A stretch of DNA of 32,532 bases. It comes from Pseudomonadota bacterium (GTDB lineage: Bacteria > Desulfobacterota > Desulfobacteria > Desulfobacterales > Desulfatibacillaceae). The first letter of the stretch is position 1; each line of letters opens with the position of its first letter. Positions 1,554 through 12,276 of the stretch are shown piece by piece. The stretch lies in assembly GCA_018829095.1 (NCBI GenBank), contig JAHJUF010000050.1, positions 1 through 32,532 of the forward strand, written 5' to 3'. The position numbers and the translations under genes are program-made. The notes under the pieces are model-generated. The model did not search any database and was not told the DNA's origin. It saw nothing but the letters and a program-made list of their open reading frames with translations.

Positions 1554-2849
1554 TCAGAGGGCTTCAGGCATCCATTTCTGGTTTTCCGGGCCCATCTGGG
1601 TGGTCTCCTTCAACCGGACCGAAACCGGCACGCCCAGCTCCTGGGAAAGGGCCGCAGACACAGCCTGGACCCTGCCCTCCAGAATCTTGACCTCATCGGA
1701 GAAGACGTCGTTGTCCACTCCCAGCCACACTTCCAGCCCGCTCGCCGTCTCCCCCCGGACCGGCCGGAACCGAAAATGCCTGGGAACGAGGGACAAAACC
1801 CGGCTCATGTGGGACAGGATCTGGTCCTGATGCACCTTGACGCCCCGGATGAGAACGGTATCGTCGAGGCGGCCCGGAAGCCACTGGACCCGCCGGAGGG
1901 TACGCCCGCAGGGACAGGGCTCGGGGATGAGACGCATGCGGTCGCCAGTCCGGAACCGGATCAAGGGAAAAGCCCGGGTGGTCAGGGTGGTGAGGGTCAG
2001 CTCTCCCTCCTCTCCCTCGGGTACCGGCGTACCGCTGGCCGGGTCCACGATCTCGGCCAGAAAATGATCCTCGGAAAGGTGCAGGCCATGGTGCTCCTCG
2101 CACTCGAAGGCCAGCCCAGGTCCCGGGACCTCGGAAAGCCCGTAATGGGACCAGGCGGTGAGGTGTAGCCCTTCCTCCAGGGCCTGCCTCGTTTCAGGGG
2201 TGAGGGGCTCCCCGGCCAGGACCAGGGTGCGCAGGGCCAGTTCGTTGGGATTCACTCCCGAGGCCAAAAGGGTGTTCATCAATTGCACGGCAAAGGTCGG
2301 CGTGGTGGACAGGACGCTGGTCTTGTAGTCCGCCAGGATCATGCGCTGCTTTTCCATGGACAGGGACGTCAGAGGGATGACGGAGGCCCCCAAGGCCTCG
2401 GCCGCGTCCTTGTAATCCCGGCCCCAGTTGGCCAGGCCCGGGTCCAGGCAAATTTGGAGGATGTCCGAGGCCCCTAGGCCAGCCGTGGAGAGGGCCCGGG
2501 TGGCGATCTCCCGCCAGATGACCAAATCCTGCCGGGTGTAGCCCGAAACGACCGGATGCACTCCCAGACCGGGAGCCGTATGAATGCGCACGATGTCCCG
2601 GAGGGGAACGGCGAACAGGCCGTAGGGATAATGCTCTGCCAGGTCCTTGCGATAGGTGAAGGGCAGCCGCCCGATGCTATCCAGGCTTTCCACGGACGAT
2701 GGCTCGGCCCGGTTTTCCATGAACCGGTTCTTGTAGAAGGGAACGGTGCCGTGGGCCCGGTTGATGGTGGCCTGTAGAAGTTCCAGCTGCCTCTGGAGCC
2801 GTTGGGCCGGGTCCATGTACTGGCCGGTCTTGACATCCGTTTCCAGCAT
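1554..2849 (-). CDS. PaaK-like adenylate-forming protein with degenerate ATP-binding loop
   Basis: A 431-residue member of the phenylacetate-CoA ligase family, aligning end to end with the PaaK at 8055-9356. Shared features are VPFYKNRF near the N-terminus, YGLSEVPGPGLAFEC with EDHFLAEI in the middle, and GRLDDTVLIRGVKVH near the C-terminus. The P-loop (A3) motif, SSGTTGQP in the other copy, reads APGLGVHP here at the same alignment position, so the Ser/Thr/Gly phosphate loop is lost. A Lys near the C-terminus (ENQKWMP) still aligns with the catalytic Lys of PaaK (SEGKAQR). The reading frame stays open far upstream inside livF, but the family match begins at the ATG at 2849. That ATG overlaps the livF stop codon as TGATG, indicating translational coupling. 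It may be inactive, regulatory, or an altered enzyme. Confidence 0.8.
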   Translation of the reverse strand: MLETDVKTGQYMDPAQRLQRQLELLQATINRAHGTVPFYKNRFMENRAEPSSVESLDSIGRLPFTYRKDLAEHYPYGLFAVPLRDIVRIHTAPGLGVHPVVSGYTRQDLVIWREIATRALSTAGLGASDILQICLDPGLANWGRDYKDAAEALGASVIPLTSLSMEKQRMILADYKTSVLSTTPTFAVQLMNTLLASGVNPNELALRTLVLAGEPLTPETRQALEEGLHLTAWSHYGLSEVPGPGLAFECEEHHGLHLSEDHFLAEIVDPASGTPVPEGEEGELTLTTLTTRAFPLIRFRTGDRMRLIPEPCPCGRTLRRVQWLPGRLDDTVLIRGVKVHQDQILSHMSRVLSLVPRHFRFRPVRGETASGLEVWLGVDNDVFSDEVKILEGRVQAVSAALSQELGVPVSVRLKETTQMGPENQKWMPEAL

Positions 2850-3592
2850 CACTCCCTCCCATCCGTGAACTGGCTGTAGTCCTTGCCCAAATAAGCCCGT
2901 TTCACTTCCTCGTCCTCCAGAAGCTCGGCCGCCCCGGCGGTGAGCACCATGCGCCCCGTTTCCAAAACATATCCCCGCTCCGCGATAGCCAGGGCCGCCT
3001 GGGCGTTCTGCTCCACCACCAGGATGGTGAGACCCTGGCTCCGGAGTTGGGCCAGGGTCTTGAATATCTGCTTCACCACCAGGGGAGCGAGCCCCATGGA
3101 GGGTTCGTCCAGAAGGAGAAGCCGGGGCCGGGCCATGAGGGCCCGGGCGATGGATAGCATCTGCTGCTCCCCGCCGGAAAGGGTTCCTGCGGCCTGTTTG
3201 GACCGTTCGGCCAGCACCGGAAACATGACGAACATGCGGTCCAAGTCCTGGCGGATGCCGAAATGATCCCGCTGGCGATAGCGCAGGTAAGCGCCCAGGC
3301 GGAGGTTGTCCATGACAGACAGGGGGCCGAAGATCAGACGCCCTTCGGGGACCATGCTGATGCCCCGGGCCACGATGGGCGGAGGGGCCAACCCCTTGAG
3401 GGATTCCCCCTTGAAAAGGATCTCCCCTTCCCATCCGGGAAGAAGCCCGCACACAGCCTGCAAAAGGGTGCTCTTGCCGGACCCGTTGGCCCCGATGAGG
3501 GCCACCAGCTCCCCTTCGGCCACCGACAGGGTGACACTGGAAAGGGCCTGGATTTTGCCGTAATAGCACTTCAGATTGCGGATTTCCAGCAT
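2849..3592 (-). CDS. livF: Branched-chain-type amino acid ABC transporter, ATP-binding protein LivF
   Basis: A 247-residue ABC ATPase of the LivF class. It has Walker A GANGSGKST (residues 34-42), signature LSGGEQQ (138-144) and Walker B LLLLDEP (158-164), followed by the switch His region near VVEQNAQ. LivF pairs with LivG to power import through LivH-LivM. An upstream ATG in the same frame at 3688 would add 32 residues unlike the family, so the start at 3592 (MLEIRN) is preferred. It gives the usual LivF length. The gene lies 55 nt after livG and overlaps the PaaK-like gene by one base. This uptake family carries hydrophobic amino acids and, in some members, other organic acids. The substrate here is inferred from the paaK neighbours to be an aromatic compound. 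Confidence 0.92.
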   Translation of the reverse strand: MLEIRNLKCYYGKIQALSSVTLSVAEGELVALIGANGSGKSTLLQAVCGLLPGWEGEILFKGESLKGLAPPPIVARGISMVPEGRLIFGPLSVMDNLRLGAYLRYRQRDHFGIRQDLDRMFVMFPVLAERSKQAAGTLSGGEQQMLSIARALMARPRLLLLDEPSMGLAPLVVKQIFKTLAQLRSQGLTILVVEQNAQAALAIAERGYVLETGRMVLTAGAAELLEDEEVKRAYLGKDYSQFTDGRE

Positions 3593-3647
3593 GGCCCGCC
3601 CATGGGGAAGGAAGGGAAAACCGTCTCTCCCCTCCCCTGTTCCGTTT

Positions 3648-4436
3648 CTATTCCCCCTGGCCCAGGTAGGCAGCCAGGACCTTTTCATCCGCCTGGATTT
3701 CCCTGGGCGTGCCCTCGGCGATCTTTCTGCCCTGGTCCAGGACCACGATGCGATCGGAGATCTCCATGGTGAGGCTCATGTCGTGCTCCACCAGGAGCAG
3801 AGTCACGCCCCGGGTCCGTATCTGGCGAAGTAGAACCCCAAGGTCGCGCGTCTCCCGGGCGTTCAGCCCGGCGGCCGGCTCGTCCAAGAGCAGAAGCCGG
3901 GGCCGGGACGCCAGGGCCCGGGCGATCTCCACCAGGCGTTGCCAGCCAAAGGGCAGATCCCCGGCCTGGCTTTCCGCCATCTTTTCCAATCCCACGAACT
4001 TCAGCCAGTCCAGGGCCGTGCCCCGGGCCTGCTCCTCTTCCCGCCGGACCCAGGGCCACTTGGCCAGGGCCCCGAAAAAACCGCACCGGGTGCGCACGTG
4101 GAGGCCCACCATGACGTTTTCCAGCACGGACATGCCCGTGAAAAGCTCCACGTTCTGGAAGGTCCGGGCGATACCAGCGGCTACCCGTTCGTACACCTCG
4201 AGACGCCCCACGTCCCGGCCCTCGAAAAGGACGCTGCCATCGTCGGCCGGGTATATTCCGGTGATCAGGTTGAACAGGGTGGTCTTTCCGGCACCGTTGG
4301 GCCCGATCAAGGCATGGATGTGCCCGGAGGCCACGGAAAAGGAAACCTCCTGCGCTGCCCGGACTCCCCCGAAGGACTTGCTGACCCTGTCCAGTTCAAG
4401 AACCGGAGCCGGTTTTTCCTCTTCTTGCGCGTTCAT
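3648..4436 (-). CDS. livG: Branched-chain-type amino acid ABC transporter, ATP-binding protein LivG
   Basis: A 262-residue ABC ATPase. Walker A GPNGAGKT is at residues 45-52, a signature region reads LPFGWQRLVEIARAL, and Walker B is LLLLDEPAAGLN, the long form typical of LivG. The first Gln-Gln of the usual LPYGQQR signature is replaced by Gly-Trp (FGWQ), a mild variation. Its start overlaps the end of livM by 41 nt. No better internal start exists, so the overlap is accepted. It is expected to form the cytoplasmic ATPase heterodimer with LivF. Confidence 0.92.
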   Translation of the reverse strand: MNAQEEEKPAPVLELDRVSKSFGGVRAAQEVSFSVASGHIHALIGPNGAGKTTLFNLITGIYPADDGSVLFEGRDVGRLEVYERVAAGIARTFQNVELFTGMSVLENVMVGLHVRTRCGFFGALAKWPWVRREEEQARGTALDWLKFVGLEKMAESQAGDLPFGWQRLVEIARALASRPRLLLLDEPAAGLNARETRDLGVLLRQIRTRGVTLLLVEHDMSLTMEISDRIVVLDQGRKIAEGTPREIQADEKVLAAYLGQGE

Positions 4437-5358
4437 AAAGATCCAACATGCCCCGGGTCAGGCCCTGGGGAAAGAAAATCATCACCACCACGAGAATGAG
4501 TCCGTACACCAGCACCTCATACTCGGAAAACACATGGAGCCACTCGGGCAGCATGGTCAGGAGAGAAGCGCCGAACAGGGATCCCCATATACTGGCCATG
4601 CCGCCGATGACCACCATGGCCACGATGCGCACGGAAACCAGAAAGCCAAAGGAACTGGGGCTGACAAAGGTGACCATGTGGGCATAGAGAAACCCCGCCA
4701 ATCCAGCCAGAACCCCGGCGAACACGAAAACCTGGAGCTTGGCGCGGGCCGTGTCCACGCCCACGGCCGCAGCGGCCTGCTCGGAAAAATGGATGGCCCT
4801 AAGCGCCCTTCCCACCCGGGAGTGTACTAGGCGCTGGCACATGGCAAAGCTCACCAGGACCACGCCCCAGACCACGAACATGTAGGGCCTTCCTCCGGGA
4901 ATCTCCAGGGGGCCCAGGGACAGGGTGGGAATACCCGGCAGCCCCGATGGCCCCCCTGTGAGGGAGGACCATTCCCGGAAAAGGACGTGAACGATCATGC
5001 CCACTCCCAGGGTGCCCATGCCCAGGTAGTAGCCGTGGAGCTTCAAGGTGGGGCGGCCCACCAGCCAGGCCACCAGCCCGCTCACCAACAGGGCGCACGG
5101 CAGGGTGACCAAAGGCGGCCAGCCCAAATGGACCCCCAGGATTCCCGTGGTGTAGGCCCCCAGGCCGTAAAAGGCCGCGTGACCGAGGGAAATCTGCCCG
5201 GCGTAGCCCATGAGCATGTTCAGGCCCACGGCCAGGAGGGTGTTGATGCCGATGAAGGTGAGGAGTTGGAAATAGTAGTAGTTATCCACCCAAAGCCCCA
5301 CGGCCAGGATGGCGGAGCCTACCAGGAGATAACCGATGACGTTGGCGAGTACTCGCAT
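4396..5358 (-). CDS. livM: Branched-chain-type amino acid ABC transporter, permease LivM
   Basis: A 320-residue, strongly hydrophobic inner-membrane protein. It carries the LivM/LivH family core GLNMLMGYAGQISLGHAAFYGLGAY near residues 45-70 and the later RIVAMVVIGGMASIWGSLFGA segment. These are hallmarks of the branched-chain amino acid permease family (about 8-10 membrane spans). LivM pairs with LivH to form the channel. It lies 48 nt downstream of livH and overlaps livG. The charged C-terminal tail (YERARRGKTGSGS) is cytoplasmic by family topology. Confidence 0.92.
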   Translation of the reverse strand: MRVLANVIGYLLVGSAILAVGLWVDNYYYFQLLTFIGINTLLAVGLNMLMGYAGQISLGHAAFYGLGAYTTGILGVHLGWPPLVTLPCALLVSGLVAWLVGRPTLKLHGYYLGMGTLGVGMIVHVLFREWSSLTGGPSGLPGIPTLSLGPLEIPGGRPYMFVVWGVVLVSFAMCQRLVHSRVGRALRAIHFSEQAAAAVGVDTARAKLQVFVFAGVLAGLAGFLYAHMVTFVSPSSFGFLVSVRIVAMVVIGGMASIWGSLFGASLLTMLPEWLHVFSEYEVLVYGLILVVVMIFFPQGLTRGMLDLYERARRGKTGSGS

Positions 5359-5406: not shown

Positions 5407-6282
5407 TCAGAAACGCTGGGTGGAGGCCTTGCCCAGAATGCCGGTGGGTCGGGCGTAAAGGATGAGCAGGAGCAGGAAAAAAGCGATGGCGTCCCGCAGG
5501 CTCGATGAGGCATATCCCACCCCCATGGCCTCCAGGATACCCAGGAGCACGCCCCCCACCACCGCGCCCCAGAAGTTCCCCAGTCCCCCAAGCATGGCCG
5601 CACAGAAACCCTTGAGGCCCAGCATGGTGCCCATGTCGTATGAGGACATGGTGATGGGCGCAATGATAACTCCGGCCACGGCCCCCAATCCGGCGGAAAG
5701 GCCCCAGGCCAGCAAGGCGATCTTCTGAGTGCCCACCCCCAGGAGGGATGCCGCGCGCTTGTTGATGGCGCAGGCCTGCATGGCCTTGCCCGTCAGGGTC
5801 CGGTGGTAGAAAAGGTTCAGGCCCACCACCAGGAGCACCACGATGCCCAGGATCCAGAGACTCTGGGGCAGCAGGTAGGCTCCGCCGATCTCGATGGCCT
5901 GGGTTTTGGAAAAAGCCGGCACGCTGTAGGCGTCCTTGCCCCAGATGAGCATGGCCACGCCCCGGAGGAAGATGGACGCCCCCACTGTGATGAGCACCAG
6001 CAGGATGGGACTCGGCTTCCGCACGGTGCGGATGGCCACCCGTTCGAAAACCATGCCAAAGGCGGCCACCAAAAGCACGGTCAGGGGGAACGCGGCCCAT
6101 AGGGGAAGATGGGCCTGGGACCACAGGGTCACCAGGACCAGAGCCCCCAGCATGACGAACTCGCCCTGGGCGAAGTTGATGAGATCCGTGGCCGAGTACA
6201 GGGTGGAGAACCCCAGGGCGATGACTGCGTAGATGGCCCCGTTGGTGACCCCGGAAAACAGGTATTGCAAGAACTCCTGCAT
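5407..6282 (-). CDS. livH: Branched-chain-type amino acid ABC transporter, permease LivH
   Basis: A 291-residue integral membrane protein. Its N-terminus GVTNGAIYAVIALGFSTLYSATDLINFAQGEFVMLGA is the classic LivH opening, and a conserved GLKGFCAAMLGGLGNFWGAVVGG segment lies near the C-terminus. It forms the permease heterodimer with LivM. It is separated from livK by 106 nt that contain a strong hairpin (6332-6365). Fewer transcripts may therefore reach this gene than livK. Confidence 0.92.
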   Translation of the reverse strand: MQEFLQYLFSGVTNGAIYAVIALGFSTLYSATDLINFAQGEFVMLGALVLVTLWSQAHLPLWAAFPLTVLLVAAFGMVFERVAIRTVRKPSPILLVLITVGASIFLRGVAMLIWGKDAYSVPAFSKTQAIEIGGAYLLPQSLWILGIVVLLVVGLNLFYHRTLTGKAMQACAINKRAASLLGVGTQKIALLAWGLSAGLGAVAGVIIAPITMSSYDMGTMLGLKGFCAAMLGGLGNFWGAVVGGVLLGILEAMGVGYASSSLRDAIAFFLLLLILYARPTGILGKASTQRF

Positions 6283-6388: not shown

Positions 6389-7549
6389 TCAGTCAACCAG
6401 TGCCCAGGTGCCGTTCTGAATCTTGATCATGACAAAGGAATCACTACCAAGGCCATTGTGCTCCACGGCGGAAAAGTTGAAGGTGCCGGAAACGCCAACA
6501 AGGCCCTTCATGTTCTCGATGCGGTCCCTCAACACGGCTTTGTCCCCGTTGGTTCCGCAAAGGGCCTGGGTGATGATGTTCATGCCGTCCCAGGCATAGC
6601 CGCCGAAACCGGATACGCCGGAGCCATACTTGGCATTGAAGCGGTCGATGTAGTCCATGAGCACGGGCTTCTGGTGCTGGCCATCGGGCAGAAGGCCGGC
6701 CACCGCGATCTTGCCCGAGGGAAGCATGATGCCCTCACAAGCGTCCCCGGCCAGCTGGATGAACTTGGGGGAAGCCACGCCGTGGCTCATGTACAGGGGG
6801 ATATTCAACTGAAGCTGCTGGGCGTTCCTGGCCACGATGGCGGGCCCGGGGTTGGTGCCCCAGCACACGATGGCGTCGGGCTTGGCCAAGCGCATCTTGG
6901 TGAGCTGGGCCGTCATGTCCGGGTCCGTCTTGCCGTAGCTCTCCTCAGCCACCACGGTGATGCCGTAGGCTGCGGCCTGCTCCAGGAGCTGCTCCTTGCC
7001 GCTCTGGCCGAAACCGTCATCCACGCACAGAAGGCCCACCTTCTTGATGCCCTGGGTCTTCATGTAGGCGTAGATTGTGGCCACGGCCTGGATGTCGCTC
7101 TGGGCGGTCTTGAACACGTAGGGCTTGACAGGCAGGGTGATCTTGTTGCCCGCCGCGCAGGAAATGAAGGGGATATTGGCTTTTTCCACCTCGGGAATCA
7201 CCGCCATGGTGGCCGGGGTGGTGCTGGGGCCGATGATGGCCAGCACCTTGTCGCTGTGGATGAGCTTGTTGGCGAAGGAGACCGCCTTGGTGGGGTCCGC
7301 CTCGGTGTCGTAGATAACGACTTCGAGTTGCTTGCCGTTGATCCCGCCGGCAGCGTTCACCATCTCGGCGAACATCTCCATGCTCTTCTTTTCCGGATCG
7401 CCCAGAAAGGATGCGGGGCCGGTGACCGAAAAGAGCCCACCGATCTTGTAGGTTTCCGCCGCCACAGCAGCGGGAGCCAACATCCAGCACACGGCCAGAA
7501 GGGCCAAGAGCACTCCCCCCACGATCTTCACCGATCTTGCTCTCTCCAT
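6389..7549 (-). CDS. livK: Periplasmic amino-acid/aryl-acid binding protein (LivK/LivJ family)
   Basis: A 386-residue substrate-binding protein of the Leu/Ile/Val-binding family. It has a signal peptide with Arg/Lys near the N-terminus, a hydrophobic core (IVGGVLLALLAVCWMLAP) and a probable AVA-A cleavage site. YKIGGLFSVTGPASFLGDP and INGKQLEVVIYDTEADPTKAV follow, the usual N-lobe start of this family. An ATG at 7603 would add 18 residues. The ATG at 7549 is chosen because AGGAGGAGG lies 5 nt upstream and the signal peptide then begins correctly. It delivers ligand to LivHMGF. The ligand is unknown. The neighbours suggest an aromatic amino acid or aryl acid, but this family also binds aliphatic amino acids. 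Confidence 0.9.
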   Translation of the reverse strand: MERARSVKIVGGVLLALLAVCWMLAPAAVAAETYKIGGLFSVTGPASFLGDPEKKSMEMFAEMVNAAGGINGKQLEVVIYDTEADPTKAVSFANKLIHSDKVLAIIGPSTTPATMAVIPEVEKANIPFISCAAGNKITLPVKPYVFKTAQSDIQAVATIYAYMKTQGIKKVGLLCVDDGFGQSGKEQLLEQAAAYGITVVAEESYGKTDPDMTAQLTKMRLAKPDAIVCWGTNPGPAIVARNAQQLQLNIPLYMSHGVASPKFIQLAGDACEGIMLPSGKIAVAGLLPDGQHQKPVLMDYIDRFNAKYGSGVSGFGGYAWDGMNIITQALCGTNGDKAVLRDRIENMKGLVGVSGTFNFSAVEHNGLGSDSFVMIKIQNGTWALVD

Positions 7550-7580
7550 GGGAACCTCCTCCTTTTCCGGTTGTCCGGAA

Positions 7581-8012
7581 TTACATGGTGTATAGGGTTT
7601 CACCCTTGATGACCGAAAAACCTTTTTCGGTGAGGGCGAGCACGGCCTGGTCCGTATTGTCGAAACGGAAGATCATGACCGCATTGTCCTGCTTCTGGCG
7701 CACGAACGCGTACATGTACTCCACGTTGATCTTGGAAGTCTGGAGAAACTCGAGAATTTCATGGAGCCCGCCCGGCCGGTCAGCCACTTCCACGGCCACC
7801 ACCCGGGTCTTGCGGACCGTGAAACCGGCGTCCTTCAGGGCGGAATCGGCCTTCCTGTTGTCATCCACGATAATGCGCAAGATGCCAAAATCCGAGGTGT
7901 CTGCCAAGGACAGGGCTCGGATGTTCACCCCGGCCTCGGCGAGCACCCGAGAGACTTCGGCGAGCCGGCCGGACTTATTTTCCAAAAAAACGGAGATTTG
8001 TTCCGCGAACAT
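7581..8012 (-). CDS. Tandem ACT domain amino-acid-binding protein (copy 1)
   Basis: A 143-residue, two-ACT-domain protein. ACT1 starts ISVFLENKSGRLAEVSRVL and ACT2 starts VEVADRPGGLHEILEFL. It matches the second copy at 1062-1493 closely over the first domain (NIRALSLADTSDFG is shared). It sits between paaK (42 nt upstream) and livK (31 nt downstream). The close paaK-ACT pairing, present twice in this operon, suggests it senses an amino acid related to the PaaK pathway and modulates the enzyme or the transporter. That role is inferred. Confidence 0.87.
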   Translation of the reverse strand: MFAEQISVFLENKSGRLAEVSRVLAEAGVNIRALSLADTSDFGILRIIVDDNRKADSALKDAGFTVRKTRVVAVEVADRPGGLHEILEFLQTSKINVEYMYAFVRQKQDNAVMIFRFDNTDQAVLALTEKGFSVIKGETLYTM

Positions 8013-8054: not shown

Positions 8055-9356
8055 TCATATCTTTCGGTTGTCGATGACCCGCTGAGCCTTGCCCTCGCTC
8101 CGGGCGATGGTCTTGGGCTCCACCAGCTTCACTCTCACCGAGACTCCGAGGGTTTCCTTGATGTTCTTGGCGATCTTCTTCTCCAGGGTCAAAAGGTCCT
8201 TGACCTCGTCGGAGAAGGCCTGCTCCCCCACCTCCACATTGACCGTGAGGTTGTCCAGGGTTCCCTCTCGGTCCACCACCAACTGGTAGTGGGGCTCCAC
8301 CTCGGTCATCTCCATAAGCACGGACTCGATCTGGGACGGAAAAACGTTCACGCCCCGGATGATGAGCATGTCGTCCGTGCGGCCGGACACACGGGTCATA
8401 CGCACCATGGTCCTGCCGCAGATGCAGGGGGCGTAGTTCAGGGAGGAAATGTCCCGGGTGCGGTACCGGAGGATAGGAAAAGCCTCCTTGGTGAGGCTCG
8501 TAAAAACCAGCTCCCCGGTCTCCCCTGGCCCGGCGGGATCGCCTGTTTCCGGCCGGATGATCTCCGGGAGAAAATGATCCTCGAAAATGTGGAGGCCCTT
8601 CTTGGCCTCGACGCACTCGATGGCCACGCCCGGGCCGATGACCTCGGAGAGGCCGTAGATGTCCACGGCCGAAAGATGCAGAATCCTTTCGATCTCCAGG
8701 CGCATGGTCTCAGACCAGGGCTCGGCGCCGAAGATACCGGACTTGAACTTGAGGGCAGAGAAATCTACCCCCATTTCCTGGGCCGCCTCGGCCAAGTGCA
8801 GGGCGTAGGAAGGCGTGCAGGTGAGGATCGTGGGGCCGAAGTCCCGCATGATAAGCACTTGGCGCTTGGTGTTGCCCCCGGAAATCGGGATCACCGAGGC
8901 ACCCAGCTTCTCGGCCCCGTAATGCACCCCCAGGCCGCCGGTAAACAGGCCGTACCCGTAGGCGTTGTGGATGATGTCCCCCCGGCTGGCTCCTCCGGCG
9001 GAAAGGGCCCGGGCCATGAGTTCCGCCCAGGTGGCCACGTCCCGGGCCGTGTACCCCACCACCGTGGGCTGGCCCGTGGTGCCCGAGGATGCGTGGATAC
9101 GGACCACGTTGTCCATGGGCACGGCGAACATGCCAAAGGGGTAGTTGTCGCGCAAATCCTGCTTGGTGGTGAAAGGAAGCCGCGAAAGATCCTTCAGGGA
9201 CTGAATGTCACCCGGCTTGACTCCGGCCTCGTCCAGCTTTCTCCTGTAAAAGGGGACCGTGGCGTAAATCCTTTCCACGTTGGCCCTCAACCTTCGGAGT
9301 TGGATCGCCTCAAGGGCCTCCCTGGGCAGGGTCTCGAACTCCATATTGTAAATCAT
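8055..9356 (-). CDS. paaK: Phenylacetate-CoA ligase (aryl-CoA ligase)
   Basis: A 433-residue adenylate-forming ligase with the complete PaaK set: [13 protein letters not shown] near residue 35, the P-loop [14 protein letters not shown] near residue 90, [31 protein letters not shown], and the C-terminal [14 protein letters not shown] with the catalytic Lys. It converts an aryl acid such as phenylacetate plus CoA and ATP to aryl-CoA, AMP and PPi. The ribosome binding site is AAGGGGAA about 7 nt before the ATG. It is the first gene after an unusual leader with aromatic codons and tandem terminators (9411-9620). In anaerobes such ligases work in phenylalanine breakdown. With indolepyruvate oxidoreductase they can also work in the reverse, assimilating direction. 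The oxidoreductase is not in this window. Confidence 0.92.
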
Positions 9357-9410
9357 TGCCGTTTCCCCTTTCTTTTCGGCCTGTGATTCTTGCGGCGGGG
9401 CGATCCCTTC

Positions 9411-9443
9411 AAAAAAAAGCCGCAGGCTTCGTCAGCCCACGGC
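9411..9443 (-). terminator. Leader terminator 2 upstream of paaK
   Basis: On the minus strand, GCCGTGGGCT (9443-9434) pairs with AGCCTGCGGC (9428-9419) around a 5-nt GACGA loop. This gives 10 pairs, two of them G-T wobbles, followed directly by eight T (9418-9411). It is a canonical intrinsic terminator lying 55 nt before the paaK start, so transcripts must pass it to express the operon. Its 5' arm can instead pair with the 3' arm of terminator 1. Confidence 0.82.
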
Positions 9444-9453
9444 CTTTTGCAAT

Positions 9454-9488
9454 AAAAAACCATGGGCTTTTCATCGTCTGCCCATGGT
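9454..9488 (-). terminator. Leader terminator 1 upstream of paaK
   Basis: On the minus strand, CCATGGGC (9487-9480) and GCCCATGG (9467-9460) form a perfect 8-bp stem with a 12-nt loop. The stem is followed immediately by six T (9459-9454). The 5' arm overlaps the 3' strand of the long upstream helix (9476-9487), so the two structures exclude each other. The 3' arm can also pair with 9442-9435, the 5' arm of terminator 2. Confidence 0.75.
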
Positions 9489-9540
9489 GGCTTTGCCGCA
9501 ATTCCTGGCTTTGCCTACTCAGGCTTCCCCACGGGCAGAC
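9476..9540 (-). promoter_or_regulatory. Antiterminator helix of the paaK-liv leader
   Basis: GTCTGCCCGTGG (minus strand, 9540-9529) pairs with CCATGGGCAGAC (9487-9476) over 12 bp, with a single G-T wobble. Forming it removes the 5' arm of terminator 1. The 5' strand lies inside the last codons of the leader peptide (residues 17-20), so a translating ribosome would mask it. The enclosed segment holds a small GCCT/AGGC hairpin around the leader stop codon and two GGCAAAGCC-like stretches. The geometry is that of an attenuator or riboswitch. I could not match it to a known aptamer class. Confidence 0.65.
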
Positions 9541-9590
9541 TTCCGAAAGCGAAAGTACCCGGAATAAAAACCGCCAATAAAAGCACCCAT
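9519..9590 (-). CDS. Aromatic-rich leader peptide of the paaK-liv operon
   Basis: A 23-codon ORF with ATG at 9590 and TGA at 9521-9519. GGGAG lies 6 nt upstream of the ATG, and a sigma-70-like promoter about 30 nt further upstream. Residues 4-15 contain Phe4, Phe8, Tyr9, Tyr12, Phe13 and Phe15, six aromatics in twelve positions. The tail (residues 16-23, RKSARGEA) has none. It resembles leader peptides of Phe/Tyr-controlled attenuators, where stalling at aromatic codons decides which RNA helix forms. The stop codon lies in the loop of a small hairpin. It was found by reading the leader by eye and is too short for ordinary gene calling. The coding role is inferred from position, ribosome binding site and composition. 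Confidence 0.6.
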   Translation of the reverse strand: MGAFIGGFYSGYFRFRKSARGEA

Positions 9591-9625
9591 CCTGATCTCC
9601 CAAGACTTTAGCAGGAAATGCGGGA

Positions 9626-9654
9626 CCCATAACAGTCCGGGCATGAACTGTCAA
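9626..9654 (-). promoter_or_regulatory. Promoter of the paaK-liv operon leader
   Basis: On the minus strand TTGACA (9654-9649), a perfect -35 box, is followed after 17 nt by TATGGG (9631-9626), a poor -10. A start near 9620 would give about 30 nt before the leader peptide and a 264-nt leader before paaK. The -35 match is strong and the -10 match is weak. Confidence 0.5.
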
Positions 9655-9710
9655 GCGAAAAGACTCGCCGCAGGGAGGCGATCCGCCCGTCCAGCCGCGC
9701 CGGGAGCGTG

Positions 9711-9740
9711 TTGCGCGCCATACAAGGCTTGTGGTATTTT
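9711..9740 (+). promoter_or_regulatory. Possible promoter for the small plus-strand gene
   Basis: TTGCGC (9711-9716) and TATTTT (9735-9740) are separated by 18 nt, about 55 nt before the start at 9796. This is the only reasonable sigma-70-like pair seen in this short divergent region. Confidence 0.3.
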
Positions 9741-9795
9741 TGGATGGAAATAGAAAATGGATGGAGACAAACCCGCATTTGCCTGGAGGCACGCC

Positions 9796-10167
9796 ATGAG
9801 CTTCGAACTGCTCCTCTATCATTCCAGGACCCGCGAGCTTGTGCCCTTTGAAAAACGGAAAAGGCTGAGGGCCACCCACGTCCCCTTTTCCGGATCCCCC
9901 CGGGCCCACGGCCTGGACCCAGACCGTCTCCTTCTGGTGGCTGACCCTTTCAGCTCCGGCAGCCACTACCTGGAGTTCTCCCTTTCCGACGTTGATTTCG
10001 TGGAAAAGCTTCCCAGCCTGGTGACCGTGGACGGTGAATCCATAAACATGGCGAGGATCTGGGTGCGGAAGGGAAGTTTGGGCCTGCGCCTGTCCCCCTT
10101 TGTGGTGGAAGACACGGCCGGGGCTGCCCCGGCGGCATCCCTGGAGATGGACCCTTTTTCCTGGTAG
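9796..10167 (+). CDS. Conserved-looking hypothetical protein, 123 residues
   Basis: I do not recognise this protein. The start at 9796 is chosen over an in-frame ATG at 9757 because GGAGG lies 6 nt before it. It begins MSFELLLYHSRTRELVPFEKRKR and has no signal peptide or membrane span. It alternates beta-like segments (DRLLLVADPFSSGSHYLEFSL, RIWVRKGSLGLRLSPFVVED) and ends in a short Pro/Ala-rich tail. It is transcribed divergently from the paaK-liv leader and converges on the kinase-like gene. Codon use looks like that of the neighbouring genes and the opposite-strand frame has no recognisable domain, so it is probably real. Function unknown. Confidence 0.6.
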   Translation: MSFELLLYHSRTRELVPFEKRKRLRATHVPFSGSPRAHGLDPDRLLLVADPFSSGSHYLEFSLSDVDFVEKLPSLVTVDGESINMARIWVRKGSLGLRLSPFVVEDTAGAAPAASLEMDPFSW

Positions 10168-10200
10168 GGGTGAATCTGACGGACAAGGGGCTTTGCAAGC

Positions 10201-10243
10201 CCAAAAAACAAAGCTTCCCGGGTCTCCACCAGACCCGGGAAGC
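10201..10243 (-). terminator. Intrinsic terminator of the hybrid kinase-like gene
   Basis: On the minus strand, GCTTCCCGGGTCT (10243-10231) and AGACCCGGGAAGC (10225-10213) form a perfect 13-bp stem with a 5-nt loop. The stem is followed by TTTGTTTTTTGG. It lies 45 nt beyond the stop codon of the gene ending at 10288. It may also shield against read-through from the convergent plus-strand gene, but the T tract is on the minus side only. Confidence 0.85.
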
Positions 10244-10287
10244 GACCACCAGGTGGGCCGTCCCACCCAGCGGAAAAGCATCCTTCC

Positions 10288-12276
10288 CTATTCTCTCTCG
10301 TCCAGCACTTCCCGAACGGTCTCCGCCAGGGTTTTCGCCCCCACCGGTTTGGACATCAGGCGAGCCAGCCCCACGGCCTGGGCGTTCTCCCGGCTCACCA
10401 GGCTGCTGTTGGCCGTACAGAGGATCACGGGGATATCCGGCCTCACCGAAAGAATCTGATCCGTAAGCTCCAGGCCAGTCATGATTTCCATGTTCTGATC
10501 CGTGATGACCAGGGAGTACCGTTTGGGGTTTTGCAGGAAGACTTCCAGCGCCTTCTCGGCGCTCTCCACGGCCGTGACCTGGTAGCCAAGACGGTCCAGG
10601 AGGGTCTTTCCGAAGTCCCGCAGGGCCGGCTGGTCATCCACGAACAGGATTTGTTCCGAGCCGCCGGGCAGGGAGACCCGGAACTCGTTATTCACCACGA
10701 AACCCGTCTCCCCGCCAGGCAGTGGCAGATACACATGAAAGCTGGTCCCCAGGCCAGGCTCGGACTCCACGGACATGCCGCCTCCATGGGCCGCGATGAT
10801 GCTCTGGGCCACGGCCAGCCCCAGGCCCTCCCCGGTTTCCGGGCACTGGGCCGCGAAACAGGGCTCGAAGATCCACTGGAGCGTTTCCTGAGAAATACCC
10901 TTTCCCGTGTCCTTGATCGTGATGCGAGCGTAGGAGCCTGGCCGGAGCCCCGGAAGCCGGGAGGCGTCGGCCGAGGTCAGATCTTCCCGGAACAGGCCGA
11001 TCTCCAGGGCCCCCCCTTCGTTGCGCATGGATTCCACGGAGTTGGCGAACAGGTGAAACAAAACCCTTTCTATCTGCACCGCATCGGCCATGATCTCCAG
11101 GCTTCCCGGCCCCAGGTACAAATGGGCCTGGATGCCCTTGGGAAGACCCGGGCGCATGGAGAACAGGGTCTCCTCCACCAGCCGCCGGAGTTCCACGGGC
11201 TCACGGCTGGAAGCTTCCCGCCCGGCAAAGGACAGGATCTTGGCAGCCAGATGGCGGGCGTGGTGAGCCGAGTCCAGCAGATTCAAGAGGCTGGGCCGCA
11301 CGGGATGCTCCTCGCTGAGTTCCATGGACTCCACCACCTGGGCTGACTCCACCACGGACCAGAGGACCCGGCAAATGTCCTCGGCGATGCCTGCGGCCAA
11401 GGTGCTTACCGCCTCCAGGCGCTGGGCCTCCATGAGGTGGCGATCGCGGCTGGACCTCTCCTCCGCCATATCCTGAACCAGGGGGATCTTGTGGCCCCAC
11501 ACCGCCAGGTTCACCAGGTTGCGCCAAGGATCCTGGACCGGGTAGACCCCTCCGGCGTAACGGAACTCGCCCTGCTCGTGGGAAAAGCTCACCGGCCTAC
11601 CGGTGCTCCTGGCCACGTCCACCAGCATATGCGCGTCCTCCTGGTCGGCTCCAGGAATGACATCCCACACTGGGCGGCCAATCATCTCTCCGGCCTTGCC
11701 CGAACCTGTCCAGGCGGGGCAGGAAGCGGCCAGGACCGAGCCTTCGGAGTCGGTTAGGAGGCTGAACTCCATGGTGGGAGCCTGCTCATGAACCGCGGCC
11801 TGGGCCACCAGCACGGGCACGAGAGCGGTGTTCCGGCTTGAAACCGGAGTTTTTTTGCCGCCTCCGCTGCCCCCATCATTCCCTTTCGCGGGCATGGGAG
11901 TGCCGGAAATCCCCAGCATGACCTTGAGGCGTTCAGCCAGTTCCTGGGGCATGAAGGGCTTGGGCAGGTAGTCGTCCGCTCCGACCCGGGAAGCCTCCAG
12001 GTACTCCATGTCACCGAAGGAGCCGGAGATCATGATGACCGGGATATGTTTGAACTGTTCGTCCTGCTTGATCCGCTCAACCACCTGGAATCCGTCCATG
12101 CCTGGCATGAAGGCGTCCAGGAGCACGGCGTCCGGCATGTAGTCCTCCATCTTGGCCAGGCCCTCGAGGCCGGACTTGGCCGTGTCCACGCTGCACTCGG
12201 GGATCAGGCGGGTCAGCAGTTTTTCGATGATGGCCAGGCAGCCGTTGTCGTCGTCTATGGCCAGGATTCTTTTCAT
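10288..12276 (-). CDS. Hybrid REC-kinase-REC protein lacking the phospho-accepting His
   Basis: A 662-residue protein. The N-terminal receiver is intact (Asp54 in VLLDAFMPGMDG, Lys in YLPKPF). A PAS-like middle follows (about 165-275), then a dimerisation/phosphotransfer helix, a HATPase domain, and a C-terminal receiver (VDDQPALRD; acceptor Asp in VITDQNM). The HATPase keeps its N box (ANSVESM), G1 (KDTGKGIS) and G2 (GEGLGLAVA). The H-box, [13 protein letters not shown] in the kinase at 14816-16732, reads STLAAGIAEDICR here. Glu299 therefore replaces His; the codon is GAG at 11382-11380. It cannot autophosphorylate on that site in the usual way. It may act as a phosphatase, a scaffold, or a receiver-driven module. 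It lies 70 nt downstream of a secreted-protein gene. Confidence 0.85.
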   Translation of the reverse strand: MKRILAIDDDNGCLAIIEKLLTRLIPECSVDTAKSGLEGLAKMEDYMPDAVLLDAFMPGMDGFQVVERIKQDEQFKHIPVIMISGSFGDMEYLEASRVGADDYLPKPFMPQELAERLKVMLGISGTPMPAKGNDGGSGGGKKTPVSSRNTALVPVLVAQAAVHEQAPTMEFSLLTDSEGSVLAASCPAWTGSGKAGEMIGRPVWDVIPGADQEDAHMLVDVARSTGRPVSFSHEQGEFRYAGGVYPVQDPWRNLVNLAVWGHKIPLVQDMAEERSSRDRHLMEAQRLEAVSTLAAGIAEDICRVLWSVVESAQVVESMELSEEHPVRPSLLNLLDSAHHARHLAAKILSFAGREASSREPVELRRLVEETLFSMRPGLPKGIQAHLYLGPGSLEIMADAVQIERVLFHLFANSVESMRNEGGALEIGLFREDLTSADASRLPGLRPGSYARITIKDTGKGISQETLQWIFEPCFAAQCPETGEGLGLAVAQSIIAAHGGGMSVESEPGLGTSFHVYLPLPGGETGFVVNNEFRVSLPGGSEQILFVDDQPALRDFGKTLLDRLGYQVTAVESAEKALEVFLQNPKRYSLVITDQNMEIMTGLELTDQILSVRPDIPVILCTANSSLVSRENAQAVGLARLMSKPVGAKTLAETVREVLDERE

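Follow-up and report, generated by a model that had tools for sequence, protein, structure and literature searches.

A predicted five-segment leader-peptide attenuator upstream of paaK-liv and aromatic biosynthesis operons in Desulfobacterota

Introduction

In the trp leader of Escherichia coli, helix 2:3 antiterminates and helix 3:4 terminates. The element described here resembles that leader and those of the E. coli phe and his operons (Trp_leader, Phe_leader) in its leader peptide with regulatory codons, its alternative helices, its U-rich terminator and, as we predict, its expression under starvation. It differs from the trp leader in possessing five segments (A to E) and two terminators, and in placing the regulatory codons upstream of segment 1 and not within it. 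Specifically, the parity is the inverse of that in trp: helices 1:2 and 3:4 are predicted to antiterminate and helices 2:3 (B:C) and 4:5 (D:E) to terminate, which, with the codons upstream of A, sets the element apart from the classical trp topology.

Likenesses to other described systems are also partial. The actinobacterial and proteobacterial attenuators of PMC1262725 likewise have complementary triples common to antiterminator and terminator and lie upstream of amino acid operons; those that we examined control biosynthesis and aminoacyl-tRNA synthetase genes, and none of them precedes a PaaK/Liv operon. TnaC, the tna leader, similarly links a leader peptide to aromatic amino acid metabolism, but the element described here has no C-terminal arrest sequence conserved across its classes, and it does have intrinsic terminators and alternative hairpins. 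The anaerobic catabolism of phenylacetate (PadJ/PaaK, Pad) uses the same ligase family, which in our case appears to be under a starvation-type leader control.

Ribosome-mediated attenuation is itself a known kind of regulation; the five-segment, two-terminator inverted form, its spread in the Desulfobacterota and its link to paaK-liv operons were found neither in Rfam nor in the papers that we searched. A search of the window with Rfam 15 returned no family at the gathering threshold (Trp_leader, Phe_leader and T-box included), PMC2965389 does not mention Desulf-, and the open literature, to which our search was confined, yielded nothing relevant for sulfate reducers or deltaproteobacteria; an earlier report of an aro or trp leader in the subscription literature is possible. 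A first-pass annotation of the same DNA likewise knew of no such control for a PaaK/Liv operon.

Architecture of the leader region

The element lies in the window, by which we mean the whole 32,532-nt stretch of DNA that was analysed, and all of its parts are on the minus strand. It begins with a −35 element, TTGACA (9649–9654), flagged in the first pass as promoter-like; an exact match is present in the upstream regions of 66 of 74 relatives, against 2.5 expected in shuffles. The probable −10 element, TATGGG (9626–9631), is weak and follows after a 17-nt spacer, while comparison with relatives shows mostly TATAGA, TATAGG or TATAGC at 16–18 nt spacing. A generic sigma-70 scan of the window did not list a promoter before the leader, because the −10 is poor.

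The promoter is followed by an SD-like GGGAG, 6 nt and a 23-codon leader ORF, MGAFIGGFYSGYFRFRKSARGEA (9519–9590; ATG at 9590, TGA at 9521–9519), identified from the sequence and its relatives. Six Phe/Tyr codons (4, 8, 9, 12, 13 and 15) lie upstream of segment A, which is contained in the last leader codons and directly followed by the stop codon. The locus has, in other words, the translatable short ORF enriched in codons for the amino acids of the pathway that an attenuator calls for. The in-frame aromatic fraction of the leader ORFs is 0.30, versus 0.17 and 0.24 in the other frames, a comparison biased by the choice of leader ORFs by aromatic content. An ORF of 290 aa (9409–10281) overlapping the element matches no Pfam family and was taken as spurious. 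Farther upstream, a strong intrinsic terminator (10213–10243, minus strand) follows a hybrid histidine kinase gene (10288–12276) and separates the kinase from the attenuated operon.

Beyond the ORF lie segments with alternative partners. Segment A (segment 1; 9529–9540; GTCTGCCCGTGG) can form 12 pairs with segment B (2; 9476–9487; CCATGGGCAGAC) in the putative first antitermination helix, and the window fold including the loop is worth −33 kcal/mol. Segment B can instead pair with segment C (3; 9460–9467; GCCCATGG; −13.4 kcal/mol) as terminator 1, which is followed by a U6 run (9454–9459). Segment C can in turn pair with segment D (4; 9435–9442; CCGTGGGC; −19.1 kcal/mol) as antiterminator 2, a helix that extends to 14 bp by running through the U-run of terminator 1, and D can pair with segment E (5; 9419–9428; AGCCTGCGGC; −21.2 kcal/mol), the 3′ arm of terminator 2, which ends in a U8 run (9411–9418). 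There is hence an intrinsic terminator with a U-run before the first structural gene. Because segment B begins about 31 nt past the leader stop, a ribosome positioned on that codon masks A and leaves B exposed. The first-pass annotation had already proposed the leader ORF with its GGGAG, the five segments, the four competing pairings and both U-runs, and every one of these coordinates proved correct.

Conservation and covariation of the competing helices

PaaK orthologues were searched for in 59 relatives and the upstream region was inspected at 30 loci. About 17 of the 30 carry a Phe/Tyr-rich leader ORF followed by A-B-C-D-E in the same order, and relatives whose PaaK is about 73–89% identical keep this layout ahead of the gene. 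In 15 aligned leaders, the antitermination pairings (A:B, C:D) are 95.7% paired and the termination pairings (B:C, D:E) 95.5%; by most measures, changes on both sides of the helices are more frequent than in any of 500 shuffles, and they lie far above slid controls. Across 76 paaK/livK copies, A:B, B:C, C:D and D:E are 96.8, 93.7, 94.4 and 94.7% paired. On this comparative evidence the four helices are supported independently, with compensatory changes in each. Individual positions illustrate how one segment serves two partners: the first base of C is tied more closely to D than to B (A-T 41, C-G 10, G-C 4, T-A 3), and the triple C161-D202-E231 covaries as a whole (C:D CG 64, TA 8; D:E GC 66, AT 8), such that in 8 copies a change from CG to TA in C:D accompanies one from GC to AT in D:E, a position held by two alternative helices. 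These are the mutually exclusive, covarying terminator and antiterminator helices of an attenuator.

The covariance model used for wider searches, R1, was built from the 15 aligned leaders with A:B and D:E as its only specified helices; the pairing of B:C and C:D in its matches is therefore not a product of the model. Chance was judged genome-wide by covariance-model E-values, including those of a leave-family-out model, R2, built without the entire window family (f1). Run against the 3.6-Mb genome from which the window comes, R2 recovers the window copy with E = 1.1e-15; the next-best match, at 0.011, is an aro operon.

The two terminators are not equally constant. Terminator 2 has its U-run (at least 5 T of 9) in 76 of 76 paaK/livK copies, whereas a U-run of at least 5 of 8 follows terminator 1 in 67 of 76, which marks terminator 1 as dispensable and the release of D as the constant role of B:C; in the 9 copies with B:C lacking a U-run, this helix can presumably act only as a switch. 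The first-pass proposal of two tandem terminators therefore stands for D:E but is only partly right for B:C.

These data also bear on the idea that the hairpins are two independent terminators insulating the operon from upstream transcription, the ORF being fortuitous. Both do resemble ordinary intrinsic terminators, and a terminator scan lists the second. Nonetheless, the promoter lies upstream and within the same unit, the cross-pairings A:B and C:D covary, and roughly a hundred copies have kept the leader ORF; we rejected simple insulation on these three grounds and regard it as very improbable, the least credible of the explanations considered.

Conservation has limits. Aromatic codons are scarce in some leaders, for example that of Desulfosarcina widdelii (L219). 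In genus g5 there are degenerate versions in which A:B pairing survives beside terminators of eroded (L003) or divergent (L004/L189) appearance, possibly a loss in progress.

Folding and a model of attenuation

In the mechanism that we propose, transcription from the promoter near 9650 would produce a leader RNA encoding a Phe/Tyr-rich peptide, with segment A inside the final codons of the ORF. With Phe and Tyr sufficient, the ribosome would reach the stop codon and cover A, B:C (terminator 1) and D:E (terminator 2) would form, and transcription would stop. With Phe or Tyr short, the ribosome would stall upstream of A, A:B would form and C would be free for D; with both A:B and C:D in place, polymerase would continue into paaK-ACT-livKHMGF-paaK2. 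We infer both actual termination and the direction of this response from the arrangement of the leader, and the attenuation reading is, by sequence comparison, well supported.

Folding of the window leader with a ribosome mask returns A:B for a ribosome at codons 4 to 13, and B:C for one at codon 15 or at the stop. A stall at codon 15 already masks A, so stalling is needed at codon 13 or earlier. The first-pass logic, in which an early stall frees A and a finished ribosome covers it, is in accord with this, codon 13 being the limit. Folding of the emerging RNA with a stalled ribosome gives C:D as the dominant helix until the end near 9419 emerges and D:E thereafter; together the two calculations give the two expected states in silico. 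The equilibrium folds favour D:E over C:D, both for the window and for 59 of 76 paaK/livK copies; any read-through at terminator 2 must therefore be kinetic, by trapping. By the time D:E wins, polymerase would be about 14 nt ahead and past the U8 run, and kinetic antitermination at the second site is plausible on the modelling. In 75 of 76 copies A:B outweighs B:C, from which it follows that an untranslated leader RNA should read through, opposite to trp and unlike its super-attenuation.

Distribution and sharing with aromatic biosynthesis operons

R1 matches occur in 320 of 390 genomes of the order (E <= 0.01) and in 82 of 297 genomes of a phylum sample (E <= 1e-6); these counts pool matches before every class of gene, and the weaker of the 320 may be chance. 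In 107 examined copies, which were drawn from the best-scoring matches and do not give unbiased class proportions, the first recognised downstream gene encodes PaaK (71), ADH synthase (22), LivK (6), PheA (4), AroE (1) or TrpE (1), with 2 unclassified; aromatic biosynthesis operons lie downstream of 27 of the 107, trpE being counted apart. Among named PaaK loci, 42 of 80 have the element upstream, and about half of the near paaK homologues have no detectable element. Named carriers include Desulfatibacillum alkenivorans, Desulfacinum infernum, Desulfacinum hydrothermale, Desulfoferrobacter suflitae and Desulfosarcina widdelii. An alignment proposed in the first pass as a check has accordingly come out in its favour: short ORF, Phe/Tyr codons and competing stems are all conserved across the Desulfobacterales and in some other members of the phylum. 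In several relatives that lack the element (L018, L022, L025, L027, L029), paaK lies closely behind an apparent crotonase gene, which suggests regulation changed by operon fusion.

A second copy is present in the window's own genome (G000:C32:4633-4772, L066; R1 E = 7e-5, R2 E = 0.011). It precedes an operon for ADH synthase, a type II dehydroquinate synthase, PheA, AroE and AroA (archaeal-type), and its leader peptide is MLRNHLGGFFYCGYFYYATGLPGGARR. The first-pass annotation had tied the element to a paaK-liv setting; it does lie before that operon, but it is not unique to it, since it is also found ahead of aro operons, in this genome and numerous others. The same element before the genome's own aromatic biosynthesis operon places the paaK-liv operon in an aromatic-amino-acid starvation regulon, and what would have been a guess about uptake becomes a regulon-level argument. 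In genomes that have paaK-ACT and livKHMGF at separate sites (G020, G087), a leader precedes each of the two. Leader composition, moreover, tracks the target: paaK and livK have Phe/Tyr leaders, aro operons have Phe/Tyr/Trp ones, and trpE has WWWW, in a leader (L077, G222:C261) with four consecutive Trp codons and the same A–E architecture, suggesting that one attenuator scaffold has been reused for Trp.

This tracking weighs against an RNA switch in which a protein or ligand (the ACT protein, perhaps, or a repressor on A/B) would operate the same hairpins and the ORF would be secondary. Such a switch would fit the conservation of A, B and C in primary sequence besides pairing, and the operon does encode an ACT-domain protein. 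Nevertheless, two partners per segment alone explain the sequence conservation, the aromatic codons follow the target pathway (a Trp run for trpE, F/Y/W for aro, F/Y for paaK) and no Rfam family matches in the window, so that we consider a switch of this kind improbable.

The sharing also speaks to a TnaC-like arrest leader, in which aromatic excess would stall the ribosome on the nascent peptide and induce a catabolic paaK operon. It is generally known that paaK is usually catabolic and that TnaC-type leaders control a catabolic operon. Against this, the same element stands before biosynthesis operons, where induction by excess would be senseless; the peptide C-termini, of the forms KS[TI]HG.. 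and GLPG[VA]R, differ between classes, as does the frame over A, with the stop either 30 or 25 nt after the start of A, the classes compared being aro and paaK. It is thus the RNA that is conserved and not a C-terminal arrest motif, the conserved feature of the peptide being its count of Phe/Tyr. Among the phenylacetate-specific proteins of Desulfococcus multivorans, furthermore, a different ligase is named (PMC5109826). Without a conserved C-terminal arrest peptide, TnaC-type arrest was rejected, and we hold it to be very improbable, more so than a ligand switch. Comparison thus reveals the element itself, its alternative pairings, its leader ORF and its sharing with aromatic biosynthesis operons, and argues for an attenuator that senses charged tRNA-Phe/Tyr.

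The operon and its likely role

The operon paaK-ACT-livKHMGF-paaK2 is conserved, for example in G018 and G023, and in the window runs on the minus strand. paaK1 (8055–9356) encodes a probable phenylacetate-CoA ligase whose closest solved structures are PaaK enzymes; it scores 630.3 bits against the PaaK equivalog model TIGR02155, a little short of the curated cut-off of 646.3. It is followed by a gene for an ACT-domain-pair protein (7581–8012; PF19571 ACT_8), a livK-type solute-binding protein gene (6389–7603; PF13458), the permease genes livH (5407–6282) and livM (4396–5358), the ATPase genes livG (3648–4436) and livF (2849–3688, the listed ORF probably beginning upstream of the true start) and, last, paaK2 (1554–2849, 5′ end approximate), a second PaaK-like gene with an altered ATP-binding loop. 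In 16 of 16 relatives (L311–L324, L273, L275) the paaK2 loop reads RIHTAPGxxxxPxVSGYT (TASG or TSPG in a few) and YGLSE-type motifs are retained despite the change; paaK2 may encode a pseudo-ligase that has been conserved, or else a ligase whose chemistry has changed.

Should a lack of Phe/Tyr raise expression, the expected function of the operon would be to supply Phe and Tyr. Its leader makes it most likely that such a lack switches it on, and that its purpose is to obtain or synthesise the two amino acids and not phenylacetate breakdown. PaaA was found in 0 of 59 relatives, and padB and padEFGHI are reported absent from D. multivorans (PMC5109826); the ring-attack enzymes of a catabolic Paa/Pad operon are in this respect missing. 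D. multivorans (G018:C1) has the operon with its leader, paaK1 and paaK2 being at opposite operon ends, and a proteomic study assigns this species two PadJ genes, dmul_C22990/23060 (PMC5109826), whose spacing matches and which are thus probably the operon's paaK1 and paaK2. In the same study, the proteins specifically formed on phenylacetate or phenylpyruvate include FadD4, another ligase, and a TRAP transporter (PMC5109826).

Homologues of the alpha subunit of IOR (indolepyruvate:ferredoxin oxidoreductase) are present in 59 of 59 relatives, 52 of them above the curated cut-off, and in the window's own incomplete genome below it; the enzyme can work in either direction. The solved chains nearest to LivK are 3sg0, 4dqd, 3ukj, 3tx6 and 4jb0 (CouP), well ahead of the E. 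coli LIV proteins, and the first four we take to be Rhodopseudomonas-type aromatic-acid binders. CouP binds coumarate and 4-hydroxyphenylpyruvate (PMC3610893). In Methanococcus maripaludis, aromatic amino acids can be made from arylacetates through indolepyruvate oxidoreductase (Porat et al., cited in PMC4162585), and rumen cultures make Phe from phenylacetate (work cited in PMC7356843). The precursors in the methanogen and rumen routes are alike; here the route would operate in sulfate reducers under predicted leader-peptide attenuation. A search of 30 loci found no element upstream of iorA, the best match (E = 0.003) being on the opposite strand. A different PaaK, 52–56% identical, adjoins iorA with no element at G036:C16, G010:C48, G011:C68, G027:C194, G037:C11 and G041:C151; judged by sequence, these are separate ior-paaK clusters.

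It is also worth considering that, under the same attenuator, the operon might simply import aromatic amino acids, aromatic peptides or 2-oxo acids, PaaK handling a by-product and no reductive carboxylation taking place. Starvation-induced uptake is a generally known use of attenuation, and livKHMGF alone has a leader in some genomes. Yet paaK-ACT alone also has a leader (G020, G022, G087), which puts the ligase itself in the regulon, and mere uptake of amino acids would gain nothing from a CoA ligase; we therefore think this version unlikely, if far less so than the switch, arrest and insulation readings. Substrate and pathway we infer from the company that the operon keeps. Salvage of arylacetates by PaaK and reverse IOR is our preferred role, by a modest preference, with aromatic uptake as its main rival; the co-regulation with aro, the presence of IOR, the absence of PaaA, the relatives of LivK and the D. 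multivorans proteomics point to one of these two and away from catabolism, and the cited arylacetate precursors fit salvage.

Discussion

The explanation that best accounts for these observations, and in which we have good confidence, is an attenuator that senses charged tRNA-Phe/Tyr and holds the paaK-liv operon in a starvation regulon, the operon likely leading from the import of arylacetates or similar aromatic acids through PaaK, reverse IOR and transamination to Phe and Tyr. A broader picture, for which we see the case as evenly balanced, is that sulfate reducers of the Desulfobacterota have a leader-peptide-controlled aromatic starvation regulon, governed by an inverted-parity, five-segment, two-terminator attenuator, in which a liv transporter, PaaK and reverse IOR make Phe and Tyr from environmental arylacetates alongside archaeal-type shikimate entry genes.

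The element defines a broad Desulfobacterota family of amino acid attenuators, unmatched by Rfam 15 in the window, whose logic predicts, when the leader is not translated, a phenotype opposite to that of trp. Its presence also warns that paaK should not be annotated as catabolic by homology: judged by its regulation, this conserved operon for “phenylacetate degradation” belongs instead with the acquisition of amino acids, which makes a concrete claim on how sulfate reducers may recycle arylacetates.
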